Below are positions 20,707 to 62,151 of a stretch of DNA of 64,000 nucleotides, in pieces (positions within the stretch are counted from its first letter, which is position 1; every line of letters starts with the position of its first letter). This stretch comes from Lentisphaerota bacterium (GTDB taxonomy: Bacteria; Verrucomicrobiota; Kiritimatiellia; UBA8416; JAIOPI01). The stretch lies in assembly GCA_021413965.1 (NCBI GenBank), contig JAIOPI010000004.1, positions 62,001-126,000 on the forward strand, written 5' to 3'. The notes below the pieces were generated by a model. That model was not told where the DNA came from and did no database searches. It saw only the letters and a list, made by a program, of their open reading frames with translations. The translations under genes and the position numbers were made by a program.

Positions 20707-22026
20707 ATGCCTTTCATGCACGTGCCCGGAATACGGCTGTCGCTCGCCATGCTGCTCGGAAGCGCGCTGGCGATGGAGAGCGGCGCGGCCTTGTCCGTAA
20801 CCCGCTTTGGAATCACCTGGACCTTCGACCGCGACGCGACGGTGGGCACCTACGCCAACGGCGATCCCTGGGTGGTGGGACCCGTGGCCATCACCAACAT
20901 CCTGCCCGTCAGCACAACCGTCGACGGCTGGACGCGAAACGGGACCATGGTGAATCCCGCGCCGAGCACCTTGCGCCAGGACCAGGGCTTCGACAGTTCG
21001 GTCACGCGCATTGCTTGGTGGAATCCCATCCTCAATGTGGCCCCGGGGTTCACGGGAGCGCCCCTTGTGGTCCAGCCCGGGTCGTCGGTCATCTCCACCA
21101 TTTCGAAAAGCGAGCCCAACACCAATCCCTCTTACTCGCAACTGGAGGCGGGCTCCGTGCTGACGGTGGTCGCGGAGGCTCCGCCCGCCGGTTCCTTTCG
21201 GCCCCCTGCCGTAGGCGATGACAAGGCCCATCGCTGGAACAAGGCCGATCTGGATTTTGGAGTTCTGAAGAAGCTGACGCCGGTGCCCTCCACCCCGCCG
21301 CTCGAAACCGTCGAAGCGTACTTCGAACGCCCGTGGCTCATGCAAAACGAAGGATCCTCCATTCAAGCCATGTCGCCCGCCTGCAACATGCCCCATTACG
21401 GCCGCGATCAGGCGCATCTCATCTCCGATGGCATGCTGTCTCTGCATCTGAACTACACCGACGCCCAGAAAGAAACCCTTTACATACGCCTGGTGCAGAT
21501 GGGGATCGACGTCTATGGCGCGACGAAGGCCGGACAGATCTGGAAGGGCGCCGGCGGGGAGAATTGCGGCCGCAAGGCACCCATGCTGCTCGCCGGCCTC
21601 GCGTTGCATGATACCAACATTCTCGAATGGGCCGACGCCCAGCGGCATTATGTCTTCCAGGAGGATCAGCAGACCTTCTTTGTGACGCAAGCCGATGTCG
21701 GACGCGTGGTGACCACGGCAGACAACCGCCCGCGGGAAACCTACCGGCAGGAGCACGTCGGCATGCCGGAGTGGGGCGAATACCACACCCGATGCCCCGA
21801 AAACGACGGCAGCAATTGGAACTCCTTCTACCGCTGGGTCGGCGGCGCCTGGCAGGGCAACATCCTGGCCATCAAGCTGATTCCCGGCGGCGAGGCGGCC
21901 TGGAACTGGCCCGCCGTGTTCGCTTACGCCGACCGCTACTGGCGCATCGAATCCCCCGCCCAGACCTACGGGCCGCCTAATGCCATCACGCCATTCGTTT
22001 GCGATATGTGGGAGGCTTACCGATGA
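20707..22026 (+). CDS. Exported FGITWTF-family protein of unknown function (paralogue 1)
   Basis: The 439-residue product has a signal peptide (LSLAMLLGSALAMESGAA). It carries the block shared by five proteins in this window: 'VTRFGITWTF' followed by 'YANGDPWVVGPVAIT'. Later shared blocks include 'SVISTISK', 'VLTVVAEAPPAGSFRPP', 'YFERPWLM', 'HYGRD', 'LYIRLVQMGIDVYG' and 'FQEDQQTFF'. The helical middle resembles an alpha/alpha toroid, common in lyases and glycosidases, but no known catalytic motif was recognised. AAGGAGA lies just upstream of ATG 20707. Its stop overlaps the IclR start (ATGA), placing it inside a sugar operon. Confidence 0.7.
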   Translation: MPFMHVPGIRLSLAMLLGSALAMESGAALSVTRFGITWTFDRDATVGTYANGDPWVVGPVAITNILPVSTTVDGWTRNGTMVNPAPSTLRQDQGFDSSVTRIAWWNPILNVAPGFTGAPLVVQPGSSVISTISKSEPNTNPSYSQLEAGSVLTVVAEAPPAGSFRPPAVGDDKAHRWNKADLDFGVLKKLTPVPSTPPLETVEAYFERPWLMQNEGSSIQAMSPACNMPHYGRDQAHLISDGMLSLHLNYTDAQKETLYIRLVQMGIDVYGATKAGQIWKGAGGENCGRKAPMLLAGLALHDTNILEWADAQRHYVFQEDQQTFFVTQADVGRVVTTADNRPRETYRQEHVGMPEWGEYHTRCPENDGSNWNSFYRWVGGAWQGNILAIKLIPGGEAAWNWPAVFAYADRYWRIESPAQTYGPPNAITPFVCDMWEAYR

Positions 22027-22769
22027 TCCAATCCATTGAACGGGCGGCAAAGTTGCTGCATCTCGTGGCCACCTACCCCGCTGGCGCCGGCGTGCGCGAG
22101 CTCGCGCGGGCCGCGCAACTCAAGGTGCCGACCGCCCAGAACATCCTCAAGACGCTGGCCGCGCTCGAGTTTCTGGAGTTCGATCCGGACGCCCGCCGCT
22201 ACCGGATCGGCCTGACGCCCCTCCTGCTGGCCGAGAAGGTCGAGCCGCTGGCGCGGCTGCGCAGGCTCGCGCGTCCCGCCATGGAAGCGTTGCAGAACGA
22301 GTTGCACGAAACCATCACGGTGTGTGCGATGCTTGTCGATCGCGTGCTCGTGTTCGACTCGCTGATGTCCAACAACGCCCTGGCCGTGGTGGACGCCAGC
22401 CACGTGGTCCCGCATCCACACTGCATGGCGTCTGGTCTTGTGCTGCTGGCCCACCGGGACCGCGAATTCCAGCAGCGCTACGCGCGCAGCCAGCCGCTGG
22501 CCACACTGCAGCCCAATGCGCCATCGACACCAGAGCGCCTGCTGAAGGCGTTGGCCGCCGTGAAGGCGCAGGGGTATGCCGAAGCCATCGACGTCTGCTC
22601 GTCGGGCGTGGGCGCCGTGGCCGTCCCCGTGTGGGGGCCCGGCGGGACCGTCGCCATGACAATCGGCTGCAGCGCACCGCTGACACGGTTCGACGCCAGG
22701 CAACGTCAGGCGGTCCGGCGGACGCTCCTCAAAACGGCACAGGACTTGAGCAAAGAGCTGGGCGCATGA
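22023..22769 (+). CDS. IclR-family transcriptional regulator
   Basis: The 248-residue protein has an N-terminal winged HTH (SIERAAKLLHLVATYPAGAG ... VPTAQNILKTLAALEFLE) and a C-terminal IclR effector domain with 'PHCMASGLVLLA' and the typical end 'VPVWGPGGTVAMTIGCSAP'. IclR proteins usually control sugar or aromatic catabolism and bind a pathway intermediate. Start and stop overlap both neighbours by 4 bp (ATGA), so it is translationally coupled within the operon that it probably regulates. Candidate sites are the half-site at 19216 and the palindrome at 18289. Confidence 0.9.
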   Translation: MIQSIERAAKLLHLVATYPAGAGVRELARAAQLKVPTAQNILKTLAALEFLEFDPDARRYRIGLTPLLLAEKVEPLARLRRLARPAMEALQNELHETITVCAMLVDRVLVFDSLMSNNALAVVDASHVVPHPHCMASGLVLLAHRDREFQQRYARSQPLATLQPNAPSTPERLLKALAAVKAQGYAEAIDVCSSGVGAVAVPVWGPGGTVAMTIGCSAPLTRFDARQRQAVRRTLLKTAQDLSKELGA

Positions 22770-25378: not shown

Positions 25379-25423
25379 CCGCGCCCGCCGCGCTGGAACA
25401 TTTGAACAACGGAGGATCATGAC

Positions 25424-27267: not shown

Positions 27268-29064
27268 TCACGTAGGGTTCCAGGCGATGGCGACGGTCTT
27301 GCCGGGCGCCCCGAGGATACGCAACACGCCCCCCGCAGGCAGGGGGGTCCAGGAAGCCTGTCCGGGGGCGGGACGGGCCCCCACTGTCAGCGCTTGCCCG
27401 TCGACCAGCACGCGGGCGGGTTGCGCCGTCAGCCGGAAGACGAGATCGGCATTCGCGTCGAACGTGGTGAGGGTGATGGAATCCGCGGCGTAGCGGATCT
27501 GCTGCACAACGGAACTGGAGCGCAGCAGGTGGTTCTCGCTGGCCGGCGCCCATTCGGGAACGGCGCCCATCGCGTCGATGAAGTGCCGCACGTAGTCGGT
27601 ATAGCCGTCGCTCCACCACGCGCCGGGCCAGTTGGGGCCGACGGCGACAAAACCGTCTTCCAGCGTCATGTAGGTGGCGTAGTTGAGAAAGCGAGTGGCC
27701 TGCTCCTTGTAGTAGGGATCGCCGGTGCGCTCGAAGAACAGGGCGCAGGCCGCGCCATAGCGCGCCGTGTGGCTGCCCATCGGTTCATAGCACCAGAGCT
27801 GCTCCTTGATGGCGTCCCAGCCGTCAGCCTTGAACACCGTCGCGATCCAGCGGATCAGCGTCGCGACGTTGGCGTCGACGTTCGGGTCCAGCCCGGGATG
27901 CCGGATCAGGTATTTGGCGAGTTCGCCGGGCGTCGTCTGCACGCGGTTGGCGCAGGACGGATCATTCGGAATGTCCTCGAAGTACCCATTCCAGACGAAC
28001 GTTTTCATGGGCCCGTTGCGCGAGTAGAGCCAGGCCCAGGCCAGGTCGCGGGCGGCCTGGTAGGCAGCCTTGCGCTCGGCCTGCAGCGCAACGCGATCAG
28101 CAATCCGGATGAGTTCATCAAAGAGCATGACCGGCGCGAGCACGTTCGACGTGTAGTCCGATATCACCACGCCCGTGCGCGCGTTGACCCGGAATGGCCA
28201 CGGCGATTGGTCCGCCGTCGAAAACCGCAGCGTCGACTTCTCCAGCTTCACCTCGCGCGCGTGGGCAGCCAGCACATCGGCGCACTGCAGAGCCGCCTGG
28301 AGATAGTTCGTGTTCTGCGTGATCTCGTAGAAACGCACGTAGCCATACCCGAGTTCGCCGACCTTATCGGGCTCGATGCCGTGCAGCCCGTCGCCGCGGC
28401 TCCCGTCGTGCTCGAACATCATCCCGCCCTCGTAGGTGGCCGCAAAGGGATCCGCGCTCGCATAGGGCACGCCGGGCCAGGCAAAGTTCGTCGGCGTCGT
28501 GCCATGCGCCATCTGGTGGTCCAGCATCTTCCCCACCACCCCCAGACAGGCGGGGTCGCCCGTGTAGCCGTAGTACCCCACGGCGAATGACTCGACGGCA
28601 CCCGCGTGCACGCAGGCAGGCGTGCTCGGCCAGACGTCGCCCGTGTAGGTGAGGGCCTTCAGATCGGGCTTGGAGAAGCTGGAGGTGACCAGGTAGAGCG
28701 GCAGACCGGTGCGAGGATCGACCGGGCAACGCTTCAGGAAAAATTCCGCGGCGAGTCGCACGACGTGATCGTACCCCGCACCGGGCACCTCCGGCTGATG
28801 CCAGGAAAGCACATGCCCCGCGGAGTCGAACGTGATGGGATGCCCGAGGATGGATGTTCGGTCAGACATTTTTGCCAGTTGGGCGCTGGCAAGCAGGGGT
28901 AGCATGAAGCACAAGGCCACAAGTCCGCACGGTCCGGAGAGCGGAACGCCTTTGCGTTCCGGCCGGCCCGCGAAGGCGGGCCGCTCCAGGGGGCCGCGGA
29001 CATCGGACGTTGGGTTTGGCGCGTCGGACAGAAACGATAGCAGCCGTCGAGTTACAGGGGGCAT
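27268..29064 (-). CDS. Exported alpha/alpha-toroid protein, putative glycan-active enzyme
   Basis: The 598-residue protein has a hydrophobic export signal unusually far in (GLVALCFMLPLLASAQ, about residues 48-63), after an Arg/Pro-rich stretch encoded by two perfect DNA hairpins. The body is helical and repetitive (YVRFYEITQNTNYLQAALQ; AACALFFERTGDPYYKEQA; AWWSDGYTDYVRHFIDAM), like (alpha/alpha)6 glycosidases, lyases or epimerases. The last 80 residues form a small beta domain. No catalytic motif is assigned. ATG 29064 has a strong GGAGGAT ribosome site and lies 13 bp inside the GH5 gene end, so the two are coupled. It belongs to the minus-strand operon starting at 32209. Confidence 0.6.
   Translation of the reverse strand: MPPVTRRLLSFLSDAPNPTSDVRGPLERPAFAGRPERKGVPLSGPCGLVALCFMLPLLASAQLAKMSDRTSILGHPITFDSAGHVLSWHQPEVPGAGYDHVVRLAAEFFLKRCPVDPRTGLPLYLVTSSFSKPDLKALTYTGDVWPSTPACVHAGAVESFAVGYYGYTGDPACLGVVGKMLDHQMAHGTTPTNFAWPGVPYASADPFAATYEGGMMFEHDGSRGDGLHGIEPDKVGELGYGYVRFYEITQNTNYLQAALQCADVLAAHAREVKLEKSTLRFSTADQSPWPFRVNARTGVVISDYTSNVLAPVMLFDELIRIADRVALQAERKAAYQAARDLAWAWLYSRNGPMKTFVWNGYFEDIPNDPSCANRVQTTPGELAKYLIRHPGLDPNVDANVATLIRWIATVFKADGWDAIKEQLWCYEPMGSHTARYGAACALFFERTGDPYYKEQATRFLNYATYMTLEDGFVAVGPNWPGAWWSDGYTDYVRHFIDAMGAVPEWAPASENHLLRSSSVVQQIRYAADSITLTTFDANADLVFRLTAQPARVLVDGQALTVGARPAPGQASWTPLPAGGVLRILGAPGKTVAIAWNPT
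28943..28982. repeat. Two adjacent perfect hairpins inside a signal-peptide coding region
   Basis: GGAACGC-CTTT-GCGTTCC (28943-28960) is followed by GGCCCGC-GAAG-GCGGGCC (28965-28982). Both are perfect 7-bp stems with 4-base loops, like REP-type elements. They encode the odd segment 'FAGRPERKGVPL' between the start codon and the hydrophobic core of the 27268-29064 protein. Confidence 0.5.
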
Positions 29065-30065
29065 GACGATCCTCCAGAGGGTTGAGTGCTGGTGTCCGGT
29101 GGCCACCAATAGCCCTTCGCCCTGGCATCCGCGATCAGCGGATCCCAGGTCCAGGCTTCCGCCTGCGGCTTGTAGTTGGCGTCCCAACAGTTCCATGAAA
29201 TGCGCATCCGCTCGCAGAACTCCGACTGCCACGCCAGCCCGTCAAAGCGCACATTCGATCCGGGGAACTCGCCGGGCTTCATGAACTCGGTATTGATCGC
29301 CGGGAAGCTGCGTTTGAGCGTACTGATGGGCGCGCCGTTGGTGACCCAGTAGCCGTGGAATCCGACCGAGGCGTTGCGCCAGTCCACGCGCAGTTGTTCG
29401 GCAACCTTCTCCATGCCCGCTTCCGGAATGGCAAACGACAGCAGGATGATGTGAGTTTCAGGGGCTTGCGCGCGGATCAGATCGTAGATCTCCTGCTGGT
29501 CGGCGATGTCCTGGGCGGTGTAGTCCGACACGTGCCACCCCACCGGCTCGTTGGCAATCTCGTAGAGCACATGCGGGCGGTCCCGGTAGCGCGCCGCCGC
29601 CCAGCCCCAGAACGCCCGCAAATGCGCCTGGGAGTGCTCGCCGACTTCATGATGATCCAGAATGACGTAGATGCCGAGCTGTTCCCCCCAGTCAACCCAC
29701 TGATCGATCTGGGCCGTCCACTCCGCATCGGTGAACGGGAAGGGATCCTTGAACTTGTCGGGGTCCCAGTTGTTGAGAGCAAGGCGCACGGAGTTGAAAC
29801 CCTTCGCGGGGATGCGCTGCCAGCTTTCGAAATCGCGCGCATACCGGATCGCCCAGGCATGCGCGCTGATCGCCCAGAACGCGGTGCCGCGCAGCCGCGT
29901 GCCCTGGTCGGTCACCACCGTTCGTCCCGACGACTGGGGATCGTACGTGTTGCGGGCGTAATCCCAGGAACCGTTGGCGATCACCTGCACCCGTCCGCGG
30001 GCCCCAGCCGAGCCGGCAAGACCGCAGAGCAGCAGCGCGGCCATGGCTCGGCGGGAAAGGCGCAT
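29052..30065 (-). CDS. Exported GH5-family glycoside hydrolase (cellulase-like)
   Basis: The 337-residue protein has a signal peptide (MRLSRRAMAALLLCGLAGSA). A TIM barrel follows with the GH5 acid/base Glu173 in LYEIANEP, the conserved HGY at 237-239 and the nucleophile Glu260 in AINTEFMKPGE. 'YVILDHHEV' matches the family's beta-4 strand. GH5 hydrolyses beta-linked glucans, mannans or related polymers with retention. It begins 3 bp after the upstream gene's stop and overlaps the downstream gene by 13 bp, so it is the middle of a coupled operon. Confidence 0.85.
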   Translation of the reverse strand: MRLSRRAMAALLLCGLAGSAGARGRVQVIANGSWDYARNTYDPQSSGRTVVTDQGTRLRGTAFWAISAHAWAIRYARDFESWQRIPAKGFNSVRLALNNWDPDKFKDPFPFTDAEWTAQIDQWVDWGEQLGIYVILDHHEVGEHSQAHLRAFWGWAAARYRDRPHVLYEIANEPVGWHVSDYTAQDIADQQEIYDLIRAQAPETHIILLSFAIPEAGMEKVAEQLRVDWRNASVGFHGYWVTNGAPISTLKRSFPAINTEFMKPGEFPGSNVRFDGLAWQSEFCERMRISWNCWDANYKPQAEAWTWDPLIADARAKGYWWPPDTSTQPSGGSSCPL

Positions 30066-30067: not shown

Positions 30068-32209
30068 TCAGTTCTCGAGCGTGGCGGTGGTGAGGTCCAG
30101 GAACGGCGCCGCGACGACCAGGTAGTCCAGATTGACGCCCCCGCCACTGACGTTTTCGACGCGCAAGGTGTGGGCGCCGGCACGTAGTTTCACCAGGCAG
30201 GGCTTGTCCCGGTATTCCGGCCAGCGCAGCCGATGCATCTGCCAGTTGTTCCAGCCGCCGGTGTTGGGGATGGCGATGGCGCGCGCCTCGTCGCAGGGGA
30301 ATTCGCCGTCAATCCGCAGCGTGCGGATGCCGGGTTCGCCGCCTTCCCCGCGGGCGCATTTCCACGCGATCTGATAGAGGCCGTTCTGCGGCACGTCGAC
30401 CGCGTACTCGAGCCAGTGCCCAGGCGCATCCCAGCCCCAGATCGCGTCGCCATGGGCGCCGGGCCTCCGGGCCGGCTTCACGGCGCCGCCGCCCTGTGCC
30501 GTCGGGTTCTCGGCTTCGATCAGCGCCGCAAACGTCTCGGGCACGCCGGCCGCCTTCGCGTCCGCAACCTGCTGCGCCACGGCCGCACCGTATGTCGCCT
30601 GCGCGCGCCCTTCCTGCTCCCGCTCGCGCGCCTCCTGTTCCCGCACGGCGCGCTCCCGCTCGGCCCGAATGCCGGCCGCGTGGGCGGCGACGTCCGCGGG
30701 CGACGGCTTTGGGTTGGGGACCCACTTCGATGCGCCGCCTTCATGCACCCACATGCGCGGATTGCCGGCCATCGGCTGCTCCGGCGCGGCATCGCGGTAG
30801 GTGCGCCACATGGCGTCCACGAACGGATCGAATGTCGAGGTCTCATCCGCCGGTCGCGCATGCGGGGCGCGGTTCGCGCCGTACGGCTCGCTCACCAGCA
30901 TCCAACGATCGCAGTAATCGAAAAAGGCATCGTGGTTCCAACTCGCAATGGCACCCATCAGGCGCGCGGCGAGGGCTTCGCCCACCCAGGCCCTCGCGTT
31001 GCAGCAGATGCGATAGGATTCCGTATTCTGATCCCACTCGGACCACTGCTCCGGCGGCTTCTCCTCGTAATGTTCGCGCGGCCCGTGATGCTGGACCATC
31101 CAGTAGAGCGCCGTCTGACCAAACCAGCCCGTGCCGTAGTAGGTCTGCGCGTCCTCCTGGAAGACCGTGCGCTCGGCCTGCGCCCGCAGCTCGGGCGCGT
31201 CGAGCATCAGGCTCGCGAACACGACGGGCCACTTGCGCCCGCTGCTGTGGCCGCCGCCCTCGTTCCAGTAGCCGCCGACGTCGGCGACGCCGGCGATGTC
31301 GATCCCGTATTGGACGAGCCCGACAAGCAGCTTCTGCTTGCGCGCCTGCGGCACGTCAAGCTGCAGCATCAGGCTCGCCAGCGAAACCAGGCGACCGTGC
31401 TCGCGCCCATAGTTGGGCTGGTTCTCGTTGGGGTTGATCTGCTGCTGCGTCCAGGACATGAGGTGCTCAAGCCAGGGGCGCTGAAAGTACCGCTCCATCT
31501 GGTCCCAGTCCTGGGGCAGCCGCAGCGTGTACGCGTGGGCATGCGCCTGATCGTCCACGACGGGCGGCGTGAGCCTTTGCAGCAAGGTCCATTTCAGCTG
31601 CGAGGCCCGGTACAGGGGTTTGTTCGTGCCCGCGTAAGGGGGGCGAAACGCGTCCGCGGGCGGCGCCTCTGGCAGGACCGTGAGCACCGCCGCGGTCTTC
31701 AGCACGCACTGGCACGACTTCTCCGACGGCCACATGATCTTGCTGGGAAAATTCTCCACGGGCAGCGTGGGGTTGCTGATGGAAGAAATCAGGGAGCGGT
31801 TGGGCTCCAACATGCAGGGGAACGTCACGCTCAGCGCGGGGTCATAGCTGCTGCGGGAGTCGTAGCCTTGTGTACCGCCAGCCGCCAGGACGATCATCGA
31901 CCCATTCCGCATGCGGTCGTCATTGCCGAGGCTGGTGTCGCCCCATTGATTCTTGGGCGTGTCGATGCGCTGATTGGCAGGCGCAGGCCCGGGGGCAGGC
32001 GTCACGCCCGTCACGGTGACCGGCCCCACCACCCACCAGTCGCCATTCACGAACTGACCGGCCGGCACCGGCTGGTCAAACGTCCACGTGATGCCGTACT
32101 GCGAGAGCTGCGTGACGCGCGTCTCGGCGGCTTGAAGACTGGCTGGCATGCCGACGACCATGGTGAATCCGGCGGCCAACACGCCTGCGGTTCGGGCTGA
32201 CTGTCGCAT
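30068..32209 (-). CDS. Exported FGITWTF-family protein with C-terminal CBM-like domain (paralogue 2)
   Basis: The 713-residue protein has a signal peptide, then 'LSQYGITWTF' and 'GQFVNGDWWVVGPVTVTGV'. The family's core blocks follow: 'SLISSISNP', 'AVLTVLPEAPP', 'RPPYAGTNKPLY', 'YFQRPWLEH', 'LLVGLVQYGIDIAG', 'FQEDAQTYY' and 'WNHDAFFDYCDRWM'. A charged helical linker (about 500-560, 'RAERERAVREQEARERE') leads to a C-terminal beta-sandwich resembling CBM6/35 (HWLEYAVDVPQNGLYQIAWK ... 'AGAHTLRVENVSGGGVNLDYL'). ATG 32209 follows GAAGGAGTAGCC. An extended -10 (32252) and the 14-bp operator variant (32290) lie upstream. It heads a minus-strand operon with GH5. Confidence 0.7.
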   Translation of the reverse strand: MRQSARTAGVLAAGFTMVVGMPASLQAAETRVTQLSQYGITWTFDQPVPAGQFVNGDWWVVGPVTVTGVTPAPGPAPANQRIDTPKNQWGDTSLGNDDRMRNGSMIVLAAGGTQGYDSRSSYDPALSVTFPCMLEPNRSLISSISNPTLPVENFPSKIMWPSEKSCQCVLKTAAVLTVLPEAPPADAFRPPYAGTNKPLYRASQLKWTLLQRLTPPVVDDQAHAHAYTLRLPQDWDQMERYFQRPWLEHLMSWTQQQINPNENQPNYGREHGRLVSLASLMLQLDVPQARKQKLLVGLVQYGIDIAGVADVGGYWNEGGGHSSGRKWPVVFASLMLDAPELRAQAERTVFQEDAQTYYGTGWFGQTALYWMVQHHGPREHYEEKPPEQWSEWDQNTESYRICCNARAWVGEALAARLMGAIASWNHDAFFDYCDRWMLVSEPYGANRAPHARPADETSTFDPFVDAMWRTYRDAAPEQPMAGNPRMWVHEGGASKWVPNPKPSPADVAAHAAGIRAERERAVREQEAREREQEGRAQATYGAAVAQQVADAKAAGVPETFAALIEAENPTAQGGGAVKPARRPGAHGDAIWGWDAPGHWLEYAVDVPQNGLYQIAWKCARGEGGEPGIRTLRIDGEFPCDEARAIAIPNTGGWNNWQMHRLRWPEYRDKPCLVKLRAGAHTLRVENVSGGGVNLDYLVVAAPFLDLTTATLEN

Positions 32210-32251
32210 GGCTACTCCTTCGTCGATCACCCTTGAGAGTGCGATCGTGTA

Positions 32252-32260
32252 ACTATAGCA
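32252..32260 (-). promoter_or_regulatory. Extended -10 promoter element for the 32209 operon
   Basis: On the minus strand TGCTATAGT is an extended -10 (TG-n-TATAGT), 43 bases before the start codon at 32209. No good -35 is seen at 17 bp, as expected for extended -10 promoters. The operator variant at 32290-32303 lies about 30 bp further upstream. Confidence 0.45.
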
Positions 32261-32289
32261 TTGACTGGAATTGCGGCTATGTCAACATC

Positions 32290-32303
32290 ATCAAGCGTTT
32301 GAT
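32290..32303. promoter_or_regulatory. 14-bp operator, variant copy (ATCAAGCGTTTGAT)
   Basis: This differs from the identical 14-mers at 49478, 54959 and 62182 in two central positions, keeping the ATCAA and TTGAT arms. It lies in the divergent region between the FGITWTF/GH5 operon (32209, minus) and the beta-helix/nitrilase operon (32338, plus), 35 bp before the latter's start. The CG centre resembles LacI-family operators; the regulator is not identified. Confidence 0.55.
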
Positions 32304-32337
32304 TGCTGATTTCCAATTCCCGCAACGGGGGGCGCCG

Positions 32338-33375
32338 ATGAAACGTTGGACCTGGCTGTTACTCGTGAATGCAGCGCTGCTGGCAGCGACCGGGCTCGCC
32401 GAGCTCGCCCCTCCCGCCGCGACTGGAAAGGCCGCCGTGCCAGCCCGCCCGACGCTCGCGACCACGGGCCCGCAACCGGCCAACGCCACGAACATCGTCT
32501 ATCGGCGCGTGGCCGACGGCGACTGGCGCGTCGGCGACAGCGAGACGCGCGCGCCGTTCCGGTTCGGCGTCAACGGGCGTGACATCATGGTGGAGCCCGG
32601 CGACAACCTGGTCTTCCAGCGCATCACCTTCGACGCGGGGAACGTCAACGTCGGCCCCGTCTGGAACTATTACAACGACAACACCAACGCGACCGAGGTC
32701 ACGTTTGAGGACTGCATCTTCAACGGTGGCTTGTGTGTGACGACGGTGGGCCGCATGCGGGTGAACATCCGGCGCTCGCGGACCAACGGCTACACGGGGT
32801 TCACGCCCAGCCCCGACGCGCTCGTCACGGTGAGCCAGACGTCCATGATCGCCGCGCACGGCGGAGATGCCGCCCGCGTTGGGCGGGCGCGCCACAATGA
32901 CGGGTTCCCCTATGGGCCGGACTCGCGCACGCCGGTGATCATGCGTGACTGCCTGATCCGGACCACGGGCCCCAGCAACCCCGGGGATCATCGCGACGCC
33001 ATACAGGTGTTCGGCGGCTCGGGGATCCTGTTCTCGAACGTGGTATTCGATCTGAACTTCGGCGAGTTCACGACTGTTGCGCCGGGGCAAAACGTCGCCC
33101 TGTTCATCGAGGACGCCAGCAACGGCAGCGTCAGCGATATCGACGTTGTCGACTGCTGGATCGAGGCCTCCGGATCGTACTTCCTGATGGGCATCCAGCA
33201 TCGCTCCGGCGAGAAGAGCCGGAACATCAACCTGATCCGCCCGCGCCTGTCGAAGTATCCGGCGGCGAACTATGCGGACAGCTTCCCCGCCTTCCGGGAA
33301 GGCATCTACACGGTGGTCGACCCGGTCTACAGCGACGACTTCAGCCCGGTTCCGCTGAGTGCCTTCGGGCTGTGA
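32338..33375 (+). CDS. Exported right-handed beta-helix protein
   Basis: The 345-residue protein has a signal peptide (MKRWTWLLLVNAALLAATGL) and repeating short strands typical of parallel beta-helices: 'VTFEDCIFNGG', 'VNIRRSRTNGYTG', 'VIMRDCLIRTTGP', 'ILFSNVVFDL', 'VSDIDVVDCWIEAS'. Beta-helices in this setting are polysaccharide lyases, hydrolases or binding proteins; no catalytic motif is assigned. The conserved-looking 'HRDAIQVFGGSG' could be functional. It is the first gene of a plus-strand operon with a nitrilase-fold protein and a second beta-helix protein, under the operator at 32290. Confidence 0.7.
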   Translation: MKRWTWLLLVNAALLAATGLAELAPPAATGKAAVPARPTLATTGPQPANATNIVYRRVADGDWRVGDSETRAPFRFGVNGRDIMVEPGDNLVFQRITFDAGNVNVGPVWNYYNDNTNATEVTFEDCIFNGGLCVTTVGRMRVNIRRSRTNGYTGFTPSPDALVTVSQTSMIAAHGGDAARVGRARHNDGFPYGPDSRTPVIMRDCLIRTTGPSNPGDHRDAIQVFGGSGILFSNVVFDLNFGEFTTVAPGQNVALFIEDASNGSVSDIDVVDCWIEASGSYFLMGIQHRSGEKSRNINLIRPRLSKYPAANYADSFPAFREGIYTVVDPVYSDDFSPVPLSAFGL

Positions 33376-42415: not shown

Positions 42416-42515
42416 CCATCGCCTCCTGTTCATCCGGCACAATCCCCCGCCAGAAGACGCGCGCGTCCCCTCCCCCAGAGCTTCAGTGGGGGGGGAGGGA
42501 GGGGACGCTGACGCA

Positions 42516-52700: not shown

Positions 52701-54894
52701 TCAGCGTGACGGACACCGTCAGCGGGAACGTGGCCGTGAACACCACGCCGAGCCCGCCCGGCGACGTGCTGGTCTGCGTGGGGCGCAGGAAGCCGGACGT
52801 GCCTTCGACGCCCGAGAAATACCGGCTGGAAACGGCCACCCACAGTTCAACCGCGTTGGAGTTGTTCTTCTTGCCGATGCTGACATAAAACCCGCCGTTG
52901 GTGTTGGGGCCCGACATGTTCCACGCGCTGCCGGAGCGACTGGCGCTGGACGAAATGATGCCGAGCTCCCAGCAGTAGGCCAGGTAGTAGTTGTACGCAT
53001 GCGGCGTCTGGACCGTGATGTCTCGGATCACCCAGGTCGCCGTGGCGCCCGTTTGATCCCACAGCGTGAACAGGTCCTTGCCGTGAATCGCGCCGATGCC
53101 GTTCTCCGTCCCCATTGACGCGCGAAACGCCCCGTCGCTCTCCGTCGGCGTGGGCGCGCCGTTGAAGGTGCCGACATTCCAGCCGGTGCCGATGCCCCCC
53201 GTGTTCACCGCCAGGCTGCCGTCGTTGAATTCGTCCACCACCGCCGTGCCGGCGTTGACGATGCGCTGGAAGTCGGCCGTGGCGGTGTAACTGGCGGCCA
53301 GCCCGGCCTTGAACGCCTTGGCTCGCAGCGTGGCGTTGGACGTCAGCGCGAACGGCGCGGCATAGAGAGTCGAAGTCGCCGTTGGCTCGCGGCCGTCGAG
53401 GGCGTACCGAATCTCCGCTCCGCTGGTCGCGCAGGTCAGAGTCACGGACACCGCATCGGCAAACGTGCCGCCGTTGGGGATGGCCGTCGGCGTGGCGACC
53501 ACGCTCGCGCTGGGCGTCAGAAAGAGGAGCGCATCCTCCCAACCGGACGGCGGCGTCAGGCTGCGCGCCTGACCGGCCGCGAACAGGCCGCCGCCCGTCA
53601 TATTGCCGTTGCGCGGGTCGAACCAGGTGGCGGACGACTCCACCGCCAGCACGTTCTGGATCGTCCCCGCCGTGGCATTGGCGAAGTAGACCGCCGCCTT
53701 GTCGCCCGCGCTGGAGCGCACGCCCACCTTGCGGGCCGCACCGCTCCCGGCGCCCGCCGTGATCAAGGTGCTGTCGGGCACCCAGAGCCACCAAGCGTGC
53801 TGGTTCGCGAACGCCGCCAGGTGCGCCATCTGGCCCGCACCCACCGCGCTCAGGTAGGCGGTATTGCCGTTCTGCTGCCAGTTCTGGCAATGGCCGTAAG
53901 CGTAGCCGCACAGCCCGCCGAACAGCGAATGCCACGCCTGCACGCGCACTTGCGCCGGCGTCGTGGGCGCGCCAGTGCCCTGATACAACTCGCCCTCGTA
54001 GGCGCCTTCCATCACGAATGACGGCTTTACCGGCGCCGCATTCGTGTAGTCGCGATTCACCACGCCATACTCATACCCGATGTCGTGCCACACCTCGGGG
54101 CCGTAGAAATCGCACCACGCCTCCTGCCGGAAGTACTGCGACAAGTCGTCGGTGTAGCCGCCCGGGTAGCGCTCCAAGCCGTGGTACGTCATGAGCGTGT
54201 TCGAGAAGTCCGCGATGCCGTCGCGGTGGTTGACGCCGTTGACGCCATCCGCCACGCCTTCCGCCATCGCCAGCCAGCCCGCCGCATTGAAGCAGTTCCC
54301 CCACCCCGGCATCGTGCTGCCGTTGGCCTGGCTGTCCTGCCCCATCGCAAAGATCACGTTCGTCGTCGCGGCGAAGAGGGCGCCCACCTGGCGCGCGTAT
54401 TGGTAGGCGCGATCGAACTCCGCCTCGCTGTTGGCCGCAAAGCGCCACGGCACGTTGGTGTCCGTCAGCCGGCCGGGCTCGCCCATGACCAGGATGACAT
54501 GCAGATCGCGCGCGGCCGCCAGGTCGCAGATCGCCCGCCAGCGCTGCCAGTACGCCACGTTCAGCTGCGTGGGATTGTTGCCGACAAAGGGCAGATTGCC
54601 CGCGCTGTCCGTCAGCGTCGGGCTGCCGGCGTAGGCGTGCGTGGCGAACACCTGCACCGCCGTGAATTCCTTGGCCGCGCGGTCGTCCAGGATGGTGATC
54701 ACGCCGGCGTCCGGGTAGGTATTGAGCAGCCACTCGGTATCGCTCAACAGCAGAAATGGCGCGCCGCTGCGGCGCTCAAGATGGTGCCCGTCGCTGCTGA
54801 CCTGCAGGTCTGTCATGCCCCACCCCGGTGCCGTCGCCATGAGCAGCAGTGCCAGTCCAATCGCCGCTCGGCCCACGAACGGAGTCTGTCTCAT
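49714..54894 (-). CDS. Giant exported apiosidase-like (DUF4038) protein with beta-propeller and multiple binding modules
   Basis: The 1,726-residue protein reads: signal peptide (to about 27); DUF4038 barrel (about 28-390), closely similar to that of the 44709-49271 protein; collagen-binding-like domain (about 395-460); CHB_HEX_C-like module (about 466-545); concanavalin-like region (about 551-805); CHB_HEX_C-like (about 813-893); DUF642-like (about 896-1051); a beta-propeller resembling GH43 or sialidase-type folds (about 1063-1383, 'YRPWLANIYKDGDGTLIGFV', 'GIAISTDEGNHW', 'YMYSSTDGVNWG'); CHB_HEX_C-like; DUF642-like; and a final CHB_HEX_C-like module ending GLVFIIR. Two enzymatic modules on one chain are likely. 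ATG 54894 follows GGGAG; GTG 54900 is in frame just before. It is divergent from the 55022 gene across the operator at 54959. Confidence 0.75.
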   Translation of the reverse strand: MRQTPFVGRAAIGLALLLMATAPGWGMTDLQVSSDGHHLERRSGAPFLLLSDTEWLLNTYPDAGVITILDDRAAKEFTAVQVFATHAYAGSPTLTDSAGNLPFVGNNPTQLNVAYWQRWRAICDLAAARDLHVILVMGEPGRLTDTNVPWRFAANSEAEFDRAYQYARQVGALFAATTNVIFAMGQDSQANGSTMPGWGNCFNAAGWLAMAEGVADGVNGVNHRDGIADFSNTLMTYHGLERYPGGYTDDLSQYFRQEAWCDFYGPEVWHDIGYEYGVVNRDYTNAAPVKPSFVMEGAYEGELYQGTGAPTTPAQVRVQAWHSLFGGLCGYAYGHCQNWQQNGNTAYLSAVGAGQMAHLAAFANQHAWWLWVPDSTLITAGAGSGAARKVGVRSSAGDKAAVYFANATAGTIQNVLAVESSATWFDPRNGNMTGGGLFAAGQARSLTPPSGWEDALLFLTPSASVVATPTAIPNGGTFADAVSVTLTCATSGAEIRYALDGREPTATSTLYAAPFALTSNATLRAKAFKAGLAASYTATADFQRIVNAGTAVVDEFNDGSLAVNTGGIGTGWNVGTFNGAPTPTESDGAFRASMGTENGIGAIHGKDLFTLWDQTGATATWVIRDITVQTPHAYNYYLAYCWELGIISSSASRSGSAWNMSGPNTNGGFYVSIGKKNNSNAVELWVAVSSRYFSGVEGTSGFLRPTQTSTSPGGLGVVFTATFPLTVSVTLTSNGWSVTTSQPGVAPIAGNWTTDLMRPGNNASITDEFKNGAFLFTAGRNHQIDGSGHTYTPNSGALESVSVVRHADSQAALPTLTPAGGLFASAPAVTITTATPGASLYYTLDDSTPTAAGGILYTVPVTVATSATLRAVAHLDGLSDSAVAAGEYVVMGAPHAGVVNGSFEDGTNGWLVASSDAAVAAYTVATNQGFTDGVRALALGSDNRAGNAVFAQLLSTTAGVSYTVNFDYGAFGSAARPQQLRVEARDGSTVVTGRVVSATGTGSFLAGSTTFQPYALTFTATSAATALYFMDETLAANSITCDGMLDDVSITSNGGELPQEPTMTVGQAELVYSNYDPGNTADMSCPTLRKSATEIYTWTENAWSSFKKFSGPLDNPQQTTEWSGYAGRWDLSGFPAGYRPWLANIYKDGDGTLIGFVHIETAEYNDTTNCRFRQGIAISTDEGNHWKYCGDVIKAQNDAYSNLGGCPYVIVGEYFYQYFNEVPLNGPRIPAVARARVADVVAAAKLGTVTAWTKYNNGSWNQDGLTGVGSNITPAPDRYDLHSDATYCAPLGKYLLTAWEQIGYSYVAPFPIDPANRGVYMYSSTDGVNWGDRIKVYTPPANGETPYSFFAGLEGASDDSSTVGSNFFLYFPDRINDKFFRVAITVQGGNTVAAPTFSPAPGTYGAGQWVSITSVTAAASIRYTTDGSDPSGGAGMSYSGPVLIAASGTLKAVATAEGMTASAVTTGAYVIEVVPRVGLVNGSFEEGTTGWTIGSSNLNAPACEVVTNQGWTAGTHALALGRLNQVGNTVLSQLLNTVSGAVYTVQFDHGAFGLGGKPQQVFVEVLDGGTVLASAAMSVNATGSFLPEDTTFQARALEFTALSSNTLLRLSDQTTLNNSFSCDGMLDQVRLTGGNVVGAPTFTPPAGTYVTAPRVAMSTATSGARIRYTLDGSLPTAEHGWLYDGPVTIANPATLRAIAYRDGMVDSGAASASYAFERGGLVFIIR

Positions 54895-54958
54895 CGCCAC
54901 ACTCCCACGGCGCAGGAGCCATCGAATGCCCTTGCCCCGGAACGGCCATCATGCCATC

Positions 54959-57323: not shown

Positions 57324-59297
57324 CTAGCGCTTCGCCACGCCGCCGCCCGTGACGCCGGTCACATCCACCACGCCGCGATCCGGCACGACCTTCACCAGCA
57401 CGTACGAATTCCCCTCATGGGTGACGAGCGTCGCCTCAACCGGCTGGCCGTTCTGCACGGCGCGGCAGGCACCCCAGCCATTGTCCACGCGGACCTTGAC
57501 GGTCAGCGGGTAGTCGAACAGGAGGTCCGACAGCGTATCGGTCAGCGTGAAGGAAATCCGCGCCGGCGTGACGGCGTCGACGGCCAGCGCATGCGCGTCG
57601 CGCGACTGTGCGTACATGGCCACGTCACAGAACCGCCCAACCCAGATGGCGTCGCGGTTGTCGTACAACGGCTTGAGCACGTTGCTTTCAATGGCGGCGT
57701 TGGGCGCCTTCACGTAGTGATAGAACATCACCTGCCAGCCCCGGTAGGAACGATTCCATTCCGCGGGACCCGGCGTCAGCAGGCGCTCCGGCTCAAAGTG
57801 CCCGTGCTCGTCCGGCGTGTACGCCTTGATGCTGCTGTAGTTGATGGCGTTGGCCGGGTTGATCCCCCCCGTGACGCCCCGGTTGGCCAGGTAGTACTTG
57901 GCGAGGGTTGCGGCTGGCGGGTCGTTGCCCCACGGCGAGGCATACGTTCTGACCCAGAGGCCCGGGATGGCCGCCTCGATGTCTTCCTTGGACACGCCAA
58001 GTTCCTCGTCGTAGTTCGTCATGAACCGGTTGTGCGTCAGCGAGTGCGAGGCAATCTCGTGCCCCTCGGCATGCAGCGTCCGGAAGTCCGCCCAGGTGCC
58101 TTGCATGCCATTGGGGTCAAAACCCGGTAGCCCCTCGCTGTCCGGCCCCCCGGTCACCACCCACCAGGTGAAGTGGAACCCGTATTGCTTGCCCATGGCC
58201 AGCCACCACGCGTGATCGGGCCGGCTGTTGTCATCCACGCCGATGGACACCGCGGCGAGCTTGTCATCCGCCCACAGGCACACCTCCGCCTGCCCGACGT
58301 CGGCCGGCCACGTACGATCCGTGACGGTAAATGGCGTCCACGCGCGCAGCATCGGCTGCTGCCGCGGGTCCACGGCGGGGAGCGCGAGCGTCTGCCATGC
58401 ACTCACGCTTTCGAAGCCTTGCGCATTCTCCGCCCGCACCCGGTAGCGGCACGTGATCGTTCCCACCAGGCCGTTGATCCGCACCTCGTGCTGCGTGCCC
58501 AGTTCGGCCGGCCGGCGCGTGAAAATCGGGACCGAGTCCAGGGTGTATTCCACCTGGCGCCTGGCCCGCACGTCGGTCTGCCAGCGGATGGCGGCGCGGA
58601 AGTTCGGCAGCAGCTCCGCCGTGATCGCCGAAATCACCGGCGGGGTGCTGTCGCGCGTCGCGGTCATCAGGTCCGCAACTTCCTCGGATGACAGGGCGCG
58701 CGGGTAGTACACCATCTCGTCCAGCACGCCGGCGACCTTGCCGAAGCGGAGCGTGGCGGCGCTGGGCGCCATGCCGGCGGAGGGCGTGCTGCAGATGAGC
58801 TCGCCATTGCGGTACAGGCGCATGATCGCGCCGTCATAGACCGCAAGCACATGGGCCCATTGGTTCAGTTGCTCGCGTACCGGCTGGGTGTCGCGTGCGT
58901 CTTCCTTGTACTGGAATTTGAACATCCAGGCCCCGGGCCACTGGGCATGCTCCTGAAGGAGAAACCCGCCGGTCGAGTCGGACTTGTCCACGATGGACTG
59001 GTAGGCCGCGTCGGCCGTGACGAAAACCCAGCCGCCAATCGAAAACGCGCCGGCAAAGTCGAGCGCGGCGTCGTTGCCCACGTCCACGCACAGCGCGCGG
59101 CTGTTCAACTGAATGCCGCGTCCCCGGACGCCATCCACATAGACGGCGTCGCCGCCGCGCATGCGGCCAGGATGCTGTCCGGCGGCGTCTTCGAGCGTGC
59201 CGTCCATCCGCCAATGGCCGGCCACTCCCGCCGGCATGGCGGCCCAGAGCCGCGCGCTCACGAACAGGCCGGCCACCACCAAACCCCAGCGACTCAT
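57324..59297 (-). CDS. Exported polysaccharide deacetylase (NodB) with LamG-like and Fn3-like domains
   Basis: The 657-residue protein has a signal peptide (MSRWGLVVAGLFVSARLWA), a LamG/concanavalin-like lectin (about 25-215, 'GHWRMDGTLEDAAGQHPG' to 'LDEMVYYPRALSSEEVADLM'), an Fn3-like segment (about 225-310) and a NodB deacetylase domain with metal motifs VSIGVDDN (Asp-Asp) and SHSLTHN (His-x3-His). A small beta tail ends it. NodB enzymes remove N- or O-acetyl groups from glycans. CGGAGGAG precedes ATG 59297. It sits downstream of the two tandem FGITWTF genes, separated by a 213-bp gap with hairpin repeats. Confidence 0.75.
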   Translation of the reverse strand: MSRWGLVVAGLFVSARLWAAMPAGVAGHWRMDGTLEDAAGQHPGRMRGGDAVYVDGVRGRGIQLNSRALCVDVGNDAALDFAGAFSIGGWVFVTADAAYQSIVDKSDSTGGFLLQEHAQWPGAWMFKFQYKEDARDTQPVREQLNQWAHVLAVYDGAIMRLYRNGELICSTPSAGMAPSAATLRFGKVAGVLDEMVYYPRALSSEEVADLMTATRDSTPPVISAITAELLPNFRAAIRWQTDVRARRQVEYTLDSVPIFTRRPAELGTQHEVRINGLVGTITCRYRVRAENAQGFESVSAWQTLALPAVDPRQQPMLRAWTPFTVTDRTWPADVGQAEVCLWADDKLAAVSIGVDDNSRPDHAWWLAMGKQYGFHFTWWVVTGGPDSEGLPGFDPNGMQGTWADFRTLHAEGHEIASHSLTHNRFMTNYDEELGVSKEDIEAAIPGLWVRTYASPWGNDPPAATLAKYYLANRGVTGGINPANAINYSSIKAYTPDEHGHFEPERLLTPGPAEWNRSYRGWQVMFYHYVKAPNAAIESNVLKPLYDNRDAIWVGRFCDVAMYAQSRDAHALAVDAVTPARISFTLTDTLSDLLFDYPLTVKVRVDNGWGACRAVQNGQPVEATLVTHEGNSYVLVKVVPDRGVVDVTGVTGGGVAKR

Positions 59298-59373
59298 GGA
59301 ACTCCTCCGTGTCCAGCATCCATGGATTGGGCACATCCCCTGCCAGGTTCTAAACACCGCGTCTTGCGTCTCC

Positions 59374-59426
59374 TGTAGGGGCGTCGCACGTCGATGCCCG
59401 CGGGCTTCGCAAGCGAAGCCCCTACA
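59374..59426. repeat. REP-like nested inverted repeat
   Basis: Outer arms TGTAGGGGC (59374-59382) and GCCCCTACA (59418-59426) enclose an inner perfect hairpin GGGCTTCG-CAAG-CGAAGCCC (59402-59421). The 'TGTAGGGGC' edge resembles dispersed intergenic repeats seen in many GC-rich environmental genomes. Confidence 0.5.
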
Positions 59427-59464
59427 AGGAGCAGGACTCATCTCGTATGGATTACGGCCCCCGT

Positions 59465-59487: not shown

Positions 59488-59510
59488 CCTCCGACGCCTG
59501 CACCCTTTGC

Positions 59511-60806
59511 TCAATGCTCTGGCAATCTGCGATACGCCGCAAACATGTTCTCCGCGAAGGGGGAGCCCCACGTGCCGGGCTGCCTCGCCTGCCAGCACAC
59601 GTCCACCCACTCGAGGAACGCGTCGTGGTTCCAAAGCGCTTCGAGCTTCATCAGGCGCACGGCCAGCGCCGTGCCCATCGTGGAATGATAGGTGATGCCC
59701 AGGTACGCGATCTTGCCGGGCATGGCACTGGTCGCCGGCTTCGTCCGGAATCCCGCGTACCGCTCCCCCCACACCGGCGTCCCCAGGGGCACCTCGTCGA
59801 ACCAGCCCGGATGCCAGTACTCCTTGCTGCCGGGGCGGTTGACCGGCAGGCGCGTGGCGTCGCGGGCCTCCGGGGTCAGGTGGAACGTTTGCCCGTCCTC
59901 CAGAAACGTGGACACCGTGTCGAAATCCACGGCCACGCGCTGCATCGGAGCGTCGTCGAGCAGCACGCCCGCAACGAGGATGGGCATCTTGCGCCCCACG
60001 CCGAGCGTGCCGCCGATGTGCCCCCAGGAGGCGCCGTTGGTGACGAGCCCGTAGTTGTCGATGCCGAGCTGCACGTAGCGGATCAGCAGCGTGCGCTTCT
60101 CGGCGGGGGTGTGGTCGTTGAGCATCAGGCGCAGGATGCCAATGCTGGTGTCCCGCGCCATGCCGCCGCCGTAGTTGCACATGTTCTGCTGCGGGTGCAG
60201 GTGGTCGCCCTGCCACTCCAACCGGTGGTCGATCCACGGCTTCTCGAAAATCCCTTCCACGCTCGCCAGGGACGGGGTCTTCGGCACCGGCGCGAGCGCG
60301 GGCAGCAGCTCCGCGCGCAGCTTGCTGGCGCTGTGCAGCGGCTTATCCGTGCCTGCGTACGGCGGGCGGAAACTGCCGCTCGGGGGAGGAGCCGCCACCA
60401 CGGTCAGCACCGCTCCCACGTCCAGCACCGGGCGCGGTTTCGGCCCGCTGATGGTCGACACCAGTGACACGCCCGGCGGGATCACGAGGCTCGGCAGGTG
60501 CAGGGCCGCATTCAGCTCCGCCTTGTAGCCCGCCACCCGGCCGTCATAGCCGTGGTCAGCCATGGACGGCATGGGATTCAACATCGACCCGTCGCGGTCC
60601 GCCTGCGTGGCGGGACGCGTGATGGACGTCACAGTCACGGGGCCCAGGACCCACCAGTCGCCGTTGACGAATTGTCCCACGGGACGATCCGCCGAGAATG
60701 TCCAGGTGATGCCGAACTGCGACACGGAGGTAGCCGCGACGGCGGGAAGGACGCCGCAGCAGAGACTCACGCACAAGACGGATGCGAACGGGAGCAACGA
60801 TGGCAT
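59511..60806 (-). CDS. Exported FGITWTF-family protein (paralogue 4)
   Basis: The 431-residue protein has a signal peptide (MPSLLPFASVLCVSLCCGVL), then 'VSQFGITWTF' and 'GQFVNGDWWVLGPVTVTSI'. It is nearly collinear with its upstream neighbour (60829-62151). Shared exact blocks include 'SIGILRLMLNDHTPAEKRTL', 'LIRYVQLGIDNY', 'GTWGSPFAENMFAAYR' and 'YWHPGWFD'. These two single-domain copies define the family core: one N-terminal beta region and a helical toroid-like body. The function is unknown. ATG 60806 follows AAGGAG at about 12 bases, 22 bp after the upstream stop. Confidence 0.7.
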   Translation of the reverse strand: MPSLLPFASVLCVSLCCGVLPAVAATSVSQFGITWTFSADRPVGQFVNGDWWVLGPVTVTSITRPATQADRDGSMLNPMPSMADHGYDGRVAGYKAELNAALHLPSLVIPPGVSLVSTISGPKPRPVLDVGAVLTVVAAPPPSGSFRPPYAGTDKPLHSASKLRAELLPALAPVPKTPSLASVEGIFEKPWIDHRLEWQGDHLHPQQNMCNYGGGMARDTSIGILRLMLNDHTPAEKRTLLIRYVQLGIDNYGLVTNGASWGHIGGTLGVGRKMPILVAGVLLDDAPMQRVAVDFDTVSTFLEDGQTFHLTPEARDATRLPVNRPGSKEYWHPGWFDEVPLGTPVWGERYAGFRTKPATSAMPGKIAYLGITYHSTMGTALAVRLMKLEALWNHDAFLEWVDVCWQARQPGTWGSPFAENMFAAYRRLPEH

Positions 60807-60828
60807 GGCTGGCCGTTCTCCTTTGGAT

Positions 60829-62151
60829 TCAAGGCTTCGGCAGTTCGCGATACGCGGCAAACATGTTCTCGGCGAAGGGCGATCCCCACGTGCCTCCCAG
60901 CCTGGCCTGCCAGCAGCTATCCACCCAGTCGAGGTACACGTCATGATTCCAGAGCGGCTCGAGCTTCATGAGGCGCACGGCCAGCGCGCTGCCCAACGTT
61001 GAATGGTAAGTGAGGCCCTGGTACGCAATCTTGCCGGGCATGACACTCGTCTCGGGCGACGTCCGCCACCCCGCGTACCGCTCACCCCACACCGGCGTGC
61101 CCAGCGGCACGTCGTCGAACCAGCCCGGATGCCAGTACTCCTCGCTGCCAGGTTGGTTGATGGTGTGGCGCGTGGCGTCGCGCGCCGCCTGCGTCAGGGC
61201 AAACGTCTGGCCATCCTCCAGAAAGACGGACACCGTGTCGTGCGTCTTGGCCACGTCGCGCATCGGCTCGTCGCCGAGCAGCACGCCCGCCGCCAGGATG
61301 GGCATCTTGCGCCCCACGCCGATGGTGCCCCCGACATAGCCCCAGCAGGCGCCGTTGGCGACGAGCGCGTAGTTGTCGATGCCGAGTTGCACGTAGCGGA
61401 TCAGCAGCGTGCGCTTCTCGGCGGGCGTGTGATCATTCAGCATCAGCCGCAGAATGCCGATGCTGGTGTCCTTCGCCATGCCGCCGCCGTAGTGGCACAT
61501 GTTCTTCAGCGGGTGCAGATAGTCCCCTTCCCACTCCAGCCGGTGATCGATCCACGGCTTCTCGAAGAGGCCCTCCACCTCCGCGAGCGCCGGCGTCTCC
61601 GCCACGGGCGCGAACGTTGGCAGCAGGTCCGGACGCAGCTTGCTCACGTTGTGCAGCGGCTTGTCCGTGCCGGCATACGGCGGGCGAAAACTGCCCGCGG
61701 GAGGTGGGGCGCCCACGACCGTCAGCACCGCCGACACGTCCAGCACCGGCCGGCCCAACGGCCCGCTCAGCGTCGACACAAGCGACACGCCCGGCTCGAG
61801 CGACAGATTCGGCAAGCGGTTGGCAACGTTCAGCGCCTCCTGGTATCCCCCGACGCGACCATCGTAGCCGTGGTCCATGGACGGCACGGGGTTGGTCATC
61901 GATCCGTCGCGGTCCGCCTTATTCGCCGGGCGCGTGATGCCCGTCACCGTGACGGGCCCCACCACCCACCAGTCGCCGTTGGCGAACTGACCAGCCGGGC
62001 GATCCGACGCCAAAGTCCACGTGATGCCGAATTGCGTGAGCGACGTGGCCGCGCAGGCGGCTTCCCCCAGCAGCACCAGCGCCAGCACGGCGGAACCGCG
62101 GGCGGCGAGGGTCAACGGACGGCAGCAGGCGGTCCTCCAGCGAGTATTCAT
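60829..62151 (-). CDS. Exported FGITWTF-family protein (paralogue 5)
   Basis: The 440-residue protein has a signal peptide (GSAVLALVLLGEAACA), then 'LTQFGITWTL' and 'GQFANGDWWVVGPVTVTGI'. It matches paralogue 4 over its full length without large gaps, so the two arose by recent tandem duplication. Conserved residues likely to matter across the family include the 'PPYAGTDKPL' loop, 'FEKPWIDHRLEW', the 'HYGGGMAKD' His, 'GVGRKMPIL' and 'FLEDGQTF'. ATG 62151 follows GGTGGGGG. The operator at 62182 lies 31 bp upstream and is shared with the divergent GH94-like gene. Confidence 0.7.
   Translation of the reverse strand: MNTRWRTACCRPLTLAARGSAVLALVLLGEAACAATSLTQFGITWTLASDRPAGQFANGDWWVVGPVTVTGITRPANKADRDGSMTNPVPSMDHGYDGRVGGYQEALNVANRLPNLSLEPGVSLVSTLSGPLGRPVLDVSAVLTVVGAPPPAGSFRPPYAGTDKPLHNVSKLRPDLLPTFAPVAETPALAEVEGLFEKPWIDHRLEWEGDYLHPLKNMCHYGGGMAKDTSIGILRLMLNDHTPAEKRTLLIRYVQLGIDNYALVANGACWGYVGGTIGVGRKMPILAAGVLLGDEPMRDVAKTHDTVSVFLEDGQTFALTQAARDATRHTINQPGSEEYWHPGWFDDVPLGTPVWGERYAGWRTSPETSVMPGKIAYQGLTYHSTLGSALAVRLMKLEPLWNHDVYLDWVDSCWQARLGGTWGSPFAENMFAAYRELPKP

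Follow-up and report, generated by a model that had tools for sequence, protein, structure and literature searches.

We analysed a 64,000-nucleotide stretch of DNA from a Lentisphaerota bacterium (contig JAIOPI010000004.1, positions 62,001 to 126,000; referred to below as the window), which carries five copies of a gene family encoding predicted exported proteins (Table 1). An earlier note, made from the sequence alone, had described these proteins as an uncharacterised family expanded five times beside glycan enzymes, possibly a new family of lyases or hydrolases. All five reading frames exist, copy 1 on the forward strand and the other four on the reverse strand. The proteins align across a core of about 430 residues (75, 40, 38, and 37% identity to copy 4) with 70 invariant columns, several of which lie inside the two sequence blocks quoted as shared. 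A hydrophobic, signal-peptide-like N-terminus is present in five of five window copies by a hydropathy measure only, so that the export claimed for all of them stands as a prediction. Of the binding modules proposed for two copies, CBM_6 in copy 2 and CHB_HEX_C_1 in copy 3 were found, while the DUF642-like end of copy 3 is weak (E 0.0042; TIGR04362, E 2e-7; both under curated cut-offs). A whole-genome search with a five-row profile gave six copies, every one on this contig (C29); the sixth, overlooked in the count of five, is located at C29:143046-144356, about 17 kb beyond the end of the window.

Table 1. Family copies, their domains and neighbouring genes in the window.
Feature	Position	Strand	Basis
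Copy 1 (P0001), 439 aa, single domain	20707..22026	+	
Copy 2 (P0004), 713 aa, family core and C-terminal CBM6	30068..32209	-	
CBM6 module of copy 2, residues 565-698	30116..30517	-	PF03422 CBM_6, E 5.6e-10
Copy 3 (P0005), 708 aa, long-branch variant	42516..44642	-	
CHB_HEX_C_1 module of copy 3, residues 455-520	43083..43280	-	PF13290, E 2e-18
DUF642/choice-of-anchor-C-like end of copy 3, residues 544-684	42591..43013	-	below curated cut-offs
Copy 4 (P0002), 431 aa, single domain, structure predicted	59511..60806	-	
Predicted N-terminal beta-strand domain of copy 4, residues 23-137	60396..60740	-	DSSP on AlphaFold model
Predicted all-helical C-terminal domain of copy 4, residues 138-431	59514..60395	-	AlphaFold model
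Copy 5 (P0003), 440 aa, tandem neighbour of copy 4 (75% identity)	60829..62151	-	
GH5-like protein, directly downstream of copy 2	29052..30065	-	
DUF4962/heparinase II/III-like protein, same-strand gene run as copy 3	37030..39750	-	
Apiosidase-type multimodular protein, directly upstream of copy 3	44709..49271	-	
Second apiosidase-type multimodular protein, upstream of copy 3	49714..54900	-	
Laminin_G_3 and polysaccharide deacetylase, downstream of copies 4 and 5	57324..59441	-	

An hmmscan of the five copies against Pfam-A and NCBIfam (E ≤ 1) returned for the family core only rows far under the curated cut-offs, and the curated sequence model of PL5 (AlgL) was absent among the matches. A PDB sequence search with one copy, a 110-row profile and a phage homologue gave nothing meaningful, a plasmid search with copy 1 gave no match, and the titles and abstract openings of literature on lyases, exopolysaccharide clusters, depolymerases and these phages held no recognisable description of the family. 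In the libraries searched, the core thus has no confident match to a described enzyme or structural family. AlphaFold predicted for copy 4 an N-terminal beta domain followed by an all-helical C-terminal domain, with a predicted local distance difference test (pLDDT) score of 94. Foldseek searches of the PDB with the whole model and with the helical domain alone gave no match at E ≤ 0.001, and with the helical domain alone no row below E 1. A second look at the fold matches gave only middling Z scores among the matches listed. The best weak alignments are with alpha-toroid polysaccharide lyases, and the two highest rows by Z are lyases; GH127 (first for the helical domain), GH76, glucuronyl hydrolase, and GH81 are also among the weak matches. 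The helical body of the earlier note is therefore predicted, its toroid likeness appearing as weak matches to lyases and hydrolases only, and the predicted fold does not speak against a plausible active site. Among predicted viral structures, two proteins match the model (E 4e-28 and 8e-28), with no further match at E ≤ 0.001.

Relatives are numerous. Three partly overlapping protein searches, with about 8000 scored candidates each, identified at least 911, 730, and 2423 relatives at E ≤ 0.001, the last number being obtained with copy 2. In the 120 matches listed for each search the source name is nearly always "hypothetical protein." Members with Ig, PKD, LamG, or InlB-repeat extensions occur, as do members bearing dockerins or CBMs. 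The copies are members of one large family which has no Pfam model and no solved structure in these searches. In species genomes, 338 coding stretches were detected, of which the best 80, representing 79 loci, were taken; by their titles they derive mainly from Planctomycetota and also from Verrucomicrobiota, Chloroflexota, Spirochaetota, Pseudomonadota, Bacteroidota, Myxococcota, and others. One record (L007) titled Candidatus Pacearchaeota has a family gene on a short archaeon-binned contig, by misbinning or transfer, and six family profile segments lie on one 13-kb Planctomycetota stretch (L045), possibly a local cluster or broken frames. Near the source organism the family is rare: among 57 genomes of its own group (own genome included) full matches were found in its own genome alone and partial ones in two class mates, a genome search of 30 other genomes of the same order found no family member, and at least 14 of 387 genomes of the phylum, its own included, have a match, a lower bound because at most four candidates were scored per genome. 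Another genome (G208) also had four matches in this count, and the idea that the present genome holds the most copies was dropped, since with this scoring copy numbers are not comparable.

In a tree of 122 rows, copies 4 and 5 group with one further protein (support 99), copy 2 (residues 96-475) groups with Planctomycetota, and copy 1 and the sixth copy each adjoin a different Akkermansiaceae protein (57% identity and support 99 in both cases; L075 for copy 1). Database relatives of copy 1 reach 67% identity. The approximately unbiased (AU) test rejected a single clade of all six copies (p 2.4e-9; 6 rows vs. 45) and of copies 1, 3, and 6 (p 1.5e-57; 3 rows vs. 48), with p-values that are indicative only because an earlier tree had already been seen. 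In a tree with viral rows and the full copy 2 core, built without the closer cellular relatives of copy 2, copy 2 joins mycobacteriophage proteins (support 97, 3 rows); its residues 34-503 share 40.8% identity with a mycobacteriophage protein, and its cellular relatives reach 82%. A search for P0250, a relative of copy 2, in 395 genomes of the phylum of Kordia found none at E ≤ 1e-60 and had no positive control. The AU rejections and the scattered tree positions indicate that several old lineages are present within one 62-kb stretch, for which repeated acquisition of family lineages would most simply account. The phrase "expanded five times" is therefore misleading, as only copies 4 and 5 are a close tandem pair.

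Residue conservation was determined in 369 sequences, of which the three protein searches supplied groups of 117, 109, and 120 and viral sequences a fourth group of 23, with copy 3 set aside. R147, D250, and Y368 are 100% conserved in each group, and Q246, Y212, and D50 are 95-100% conserved across the four (D50 96-100%). K273, E303, and D304 are less constant in the viral group (74-78%) than in the three cellular ones (93-100%), with E303 and D304 replaced in some viral members; N208 (96% in cellular copies) fails the viral filter. K273 and D304 are both kept in 362 of 370 proteins, which are related and hence not independent, and both absent in five; only K273 is absent in two proteins (both gapped there) and only D304 in one. 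This pattern suggests that K273 and D304 may form a coupled pair. Copy 3 is one of the five proteins lacking both and also has Met at W392; because these residues are otherwise near-invariant it is likely an altered family member, and judged by its residues it would be an altered-specificity or binding variant. The joint loss is also seen in a few viral members.

The genes surrounding the relatives point to exopolysaccharide biosynthesis. The 79 loci have 275 genes at most two places from a family gene, and among the 256 of these encoding at most 700 amino acids, which were scanned, there are 23 GT2, 12 glycosyltransferase group 1, and 5 Asn_synthase proteins, together with at least 5 GT28_C and at least 4 DUF3485 proteins, among the families listed. 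Ten gene clusters were chosen from the loci and one member of each was scanned, giving GT2, GT28/Alg14-like, hexapeptide transferase, flippase/pyruvyl transferase, GT4, amidotransferase/asparagine synthase, DegT, and Bac_transf members; two of the ten had no Pfam match. Seven exopolysaccharide-marker models are present in 36 of the 79 family loci compared to one of 40 control stretches (11.35 vs. 0.21 markers per 100 kb). The models were built from family-neighbor proteins, which favors the family loci, and the control stretches were shorter on average (12 vs. 16 kb) and were chosen by contig number, non-randomly, from 20 genomes that all have a marker-bearing family locus. Three or more marker types occur in 23 of 79 loci, and not even two types in any of the 40 controls. 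Of the 43 loci without a marker, 25 have fewer than 10 called genes and 18 have 10 or more. Bac_transf was found in seven of the 68 loci covered by this test (11 were left out) where 0.67 were expected from genome counts, but these seven are not independent because all are on one tree branch, which also holds copies 1, 3, and 6. Within 10-kb flanks, the glycosyltransferase frequency with increasing gene distance is 0.167, 0.151, and 0.186, and then 0.096 at seven genes or more; this profile is nearly flat to six genes, as expected of long clusters, and by itself is no proof of linkage, which the external control supports. At the Akkermansiaceae locus L075, the family gene stands in the midst of what reads as an exopolysaccharide operon. 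Marker enrichment and this operon indicate that much of the family is linked to the synthesis of exopolysaccharides, in the way that AlgL is linked to alginate. A simple pattern search found no PEP-CTERM tails on relatives in the 79 loci, and four loci have a C-terminal membrane-anchor-like end. A conserved 411-amino-acid companion protein (L080:97-1332) without a Pfam match at E ≤ 1e-6 has relatives in 13 loci and stands two genes upstream of the family gene in six.

Relatives are also encoded by phages. Searches with copy 4 and copy 1 found 21 and 22 phage records, respectively, 20 of them from Mycobacterium phages (19 phages) and the remaining one or two from Microcystis phages; copy 2 found 20 Mycobacterium-phage records and one named "Bacteriophage." Two mycobacteriophages that were viewed, Redno2 and Halley, belong to Omegavirus. 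In Redno2 (L151) a minor tail gene annotated as having lysin activity lies five places ahead of the family gene and a lysin gene two places behind it, the genes in between being hypothetical. In Halley (L185) the family gene is annotated as minor tail protein, and lysin A, lysin B, and holin follow two, four, and five places after it. The homologous gene is called lysin A in the Redno2 record and minor tail protein in Halley; one of these annotations is probably wrong, because Halley has a separate lysin A two genes downstream. In the Microcystis phage Mwe-JY25 (L152, 5911-9426) the family domain is part of a 3516-bp gene annotated as carbohydrate esterase, with a tail fiber gene adjoining on the other strand and a putative integrase gene two places upstream. 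By the depositors' annotation, the family gene is thus in a tail module or lysis region in three of three phage records viewed. IMG/VR contributed 32 contig loci, including a 108,297-base record resembling Redno2 again and near-duplicates (L163-165; L169/L170; L181-183). The profile phrog_2, which we take to be the large terminase, matched in nine of the 27 records tested (one weakly) and also in 11 of 14 control genomes, and a portal model matched in two of 27; with so few matches, the viral nature of the remaining contigs rests on IMG/VR.

The window itself has a different setting. The seven exopolysaccharide markers are absent from the window and its three flanking stretches, and the six Bac_transf genes of this genome are all on other contigs. 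In addition to the genes in Table 1, this island of degradation-type genes encodes a rhamnosidase, GH94, an acetyl-xylan-esterase-like protein, a GDSL esterase, DUF1565, and a beta-helix protein, and a GH2 is present in a flank. GH88/105 was considered as a lyase partner and there is none on this contig. Contrary to the statement that all copies are in glycan operons, copy 1 adjoins an MttB-type trimethylamine methyltransferase family gene (19202-20689, E 8.7e-61; 17 bases upstream) and is near a sugar-isomerase-like gene, with no clear operon of carbohydrate-active enzymes. No Pfam match at E ≤ 0.001 was obtained for five window proteins (22322-25378, 27268-29232, 32233-33375, 41306-42535, and 8862-10706), among which there could be further unclassified enzymes. 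Three FGE-sulfatase-type (formylglycine-generating-like) proteins lie close together beside the sixth copy, beyond the window (L086:8107-16494).

These data are best read as those of an undescribed family of predicted exported glycan depolymerases, to which, with cleavage by tyrosine-based beta-elimination in a cleft of the helical domain, we assign a probability of about 0.4. A glycan chain would occupy the cleft of the helical C-terminal domain and be cut with the invariant Y368, together with Y212, acting as base and acid, while R147 would neutralize the uronate, by analogy to Y256/R249 in AlgL (PMC8829089). A depolymerase is proposed because one core recurs in three settings, close to genes for slime assembly, close to phage tail genes and within a degradation island, and few other functions fit; the best reading is use in slime assembly, by phages, and here in glycan degradation, where the copies may digest extracellular or bacterial glycans as food. 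The invariant Tyr and Arg, along with the highest rows by Z, weakly favor a lyase over a hydrolase. The proposal of a new lyase or hydrolase family thus holds as far as the family is unclassified, its catalysis being putative. Hydrolysis with D50, D250, or E303/D304 as catalytic acids is rather unlikely in our view. The conservation of D50 and D250 and the hydrolases among the weak fold matches are consistent with it, and the beta domain precedes the helical domain in several hydrolase families (GH9, GH65, and GH94), an order which the model shares. However, the replacement of E303 and D304 in some viral members, and of D304 also in copy 3, argues against the latter pair, D250 is located midway in a long predicted helix and could be structural, and the two highest rows by Z are lyases.

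A non-catalytic matrix or glycan-binding protein that retains or organizes exopolysaccharide at the cell surface, and with which phages bind their hosts, would explain the many members with Ig, PKD, LamG, or InlB-repeat extensions, the four membrane-anchor-like ends, and the lack of a significant enzyme match for the fold. The polar residues that bacterial and phage members conserve very strongly, the catabolic enzymes beside the window copies, and the members with dockerins or CBMs make this improbable. Least likely is an enzyme degrading plant pectin or rhamnogalacturonan with biosynthesis genes as incidental neighbors. The pectin link of the earlier note agrees with the apiosidase-, rhamnosidase-, heparinase-, and beta-helix-type neighbors in the window, and is confined to it: elsewhere biosynthesis markers are strongly enriched near relatives, and other relatives are encoded by phages that infect Mycobacterium smegmatis and Microcystis, hosts which are not known to make pectin. 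Extending the depolymerase reading, the family might be a new polysaccharide lyase clan in which a half-size alpha toroid comes after a beta domain, with Tyr/Arg catalysis and no PDB relative, common to bacterial slime-assembly operons and phage tails, and the six copies from several lineages might form one locus specialized in eating the exopolysaccharides of other microbes; we consider this extension doubtful.

Enzymes able to cleave the exopolysaccharides of bacteria are scarce and are useful in biofilm research, and many slime clusters hold genes without an assigned role. Here, a family of thousands sharing one conserved core is linked at the same time to the synthesis of slime, to phage tails, and to a degradation island. 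Should its members prove active, a gap that recurs in the exopolysaccharide clusters of Planctomycetota and Verrucomicrobiota would be closed, and a gene in the tail region of 20 mycobacteriophage records would gain an annotation.

Among known systems, AlgL is an exported depolymerase that is encoded inside the alginate biosynthetic operon and whose proposed catalytic residues include Tyr and Arg (PMC8829089). The family resembles AlgL/PL5 in its predicted helical domain, in Tyr and Arg proposed here from conservation, and, for part of the relatives (36 of 79 loci; L075) and not for the copies of this genome, in a gene position within an exopolysaccharide operon; it differs in having no PL5 sequence-model match. 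The toroid lyases grouped as closest are PL39, PL17, PL8, and PL33, but no Foldseek row for the helical domain lies below E 1. In PL39, PL17, and PL8 an N-terminal toroid comes before a C-terminal antiparallel beta domain, as in the PL39 alginate lyase Dp0100 (PDB 6jp4), where the toroid is residues 1-355 (PMC12088678), whereas the order predicted here for copy 4 is the reverse. Compared by sequence with the Tyr acid/base and Asn (and often His) neutralizer of PL39, PL17, and PL8, Y368 and Y212 are conserved, and the candidate Asn, N208, is 96% conserved in cellular copies and fails the viral filter. For paired barrel acids of the GH76 type, E303/D304 are kept in cellular copies and replaced in some viral ones, and D50/D250 are nearly or fully invariant. 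PslG, PelA, and PgaB, hydrolases of exopolysaccharide clusters, were not among the matches listed in the PDB sequence and fold searches; what they would share with the family is a chain-cutter encoded within a chain-making cluster. Phage tail-associated depolymerases and lysins are similar in location, relatives standing between minor-tail and lysin/holin genes in two Omegavirus phages and beside a tail fiber gene in the Microcystis phage, but the model has no beta-helix spike fold and the record annotations disagree (lysin A, minor tail, hypothetical, carbohydrate esterase). Two features that mark membership of existing families, the PL5 sequence model and, judged on a predicted structure, the domain order of PL39/PL17/PL8, are thus absent, and by analogy the proteins may work like AlgL-type and phage depolymerases; the exopolysaccharide-biosynthesis and phage contexts of the family are new.

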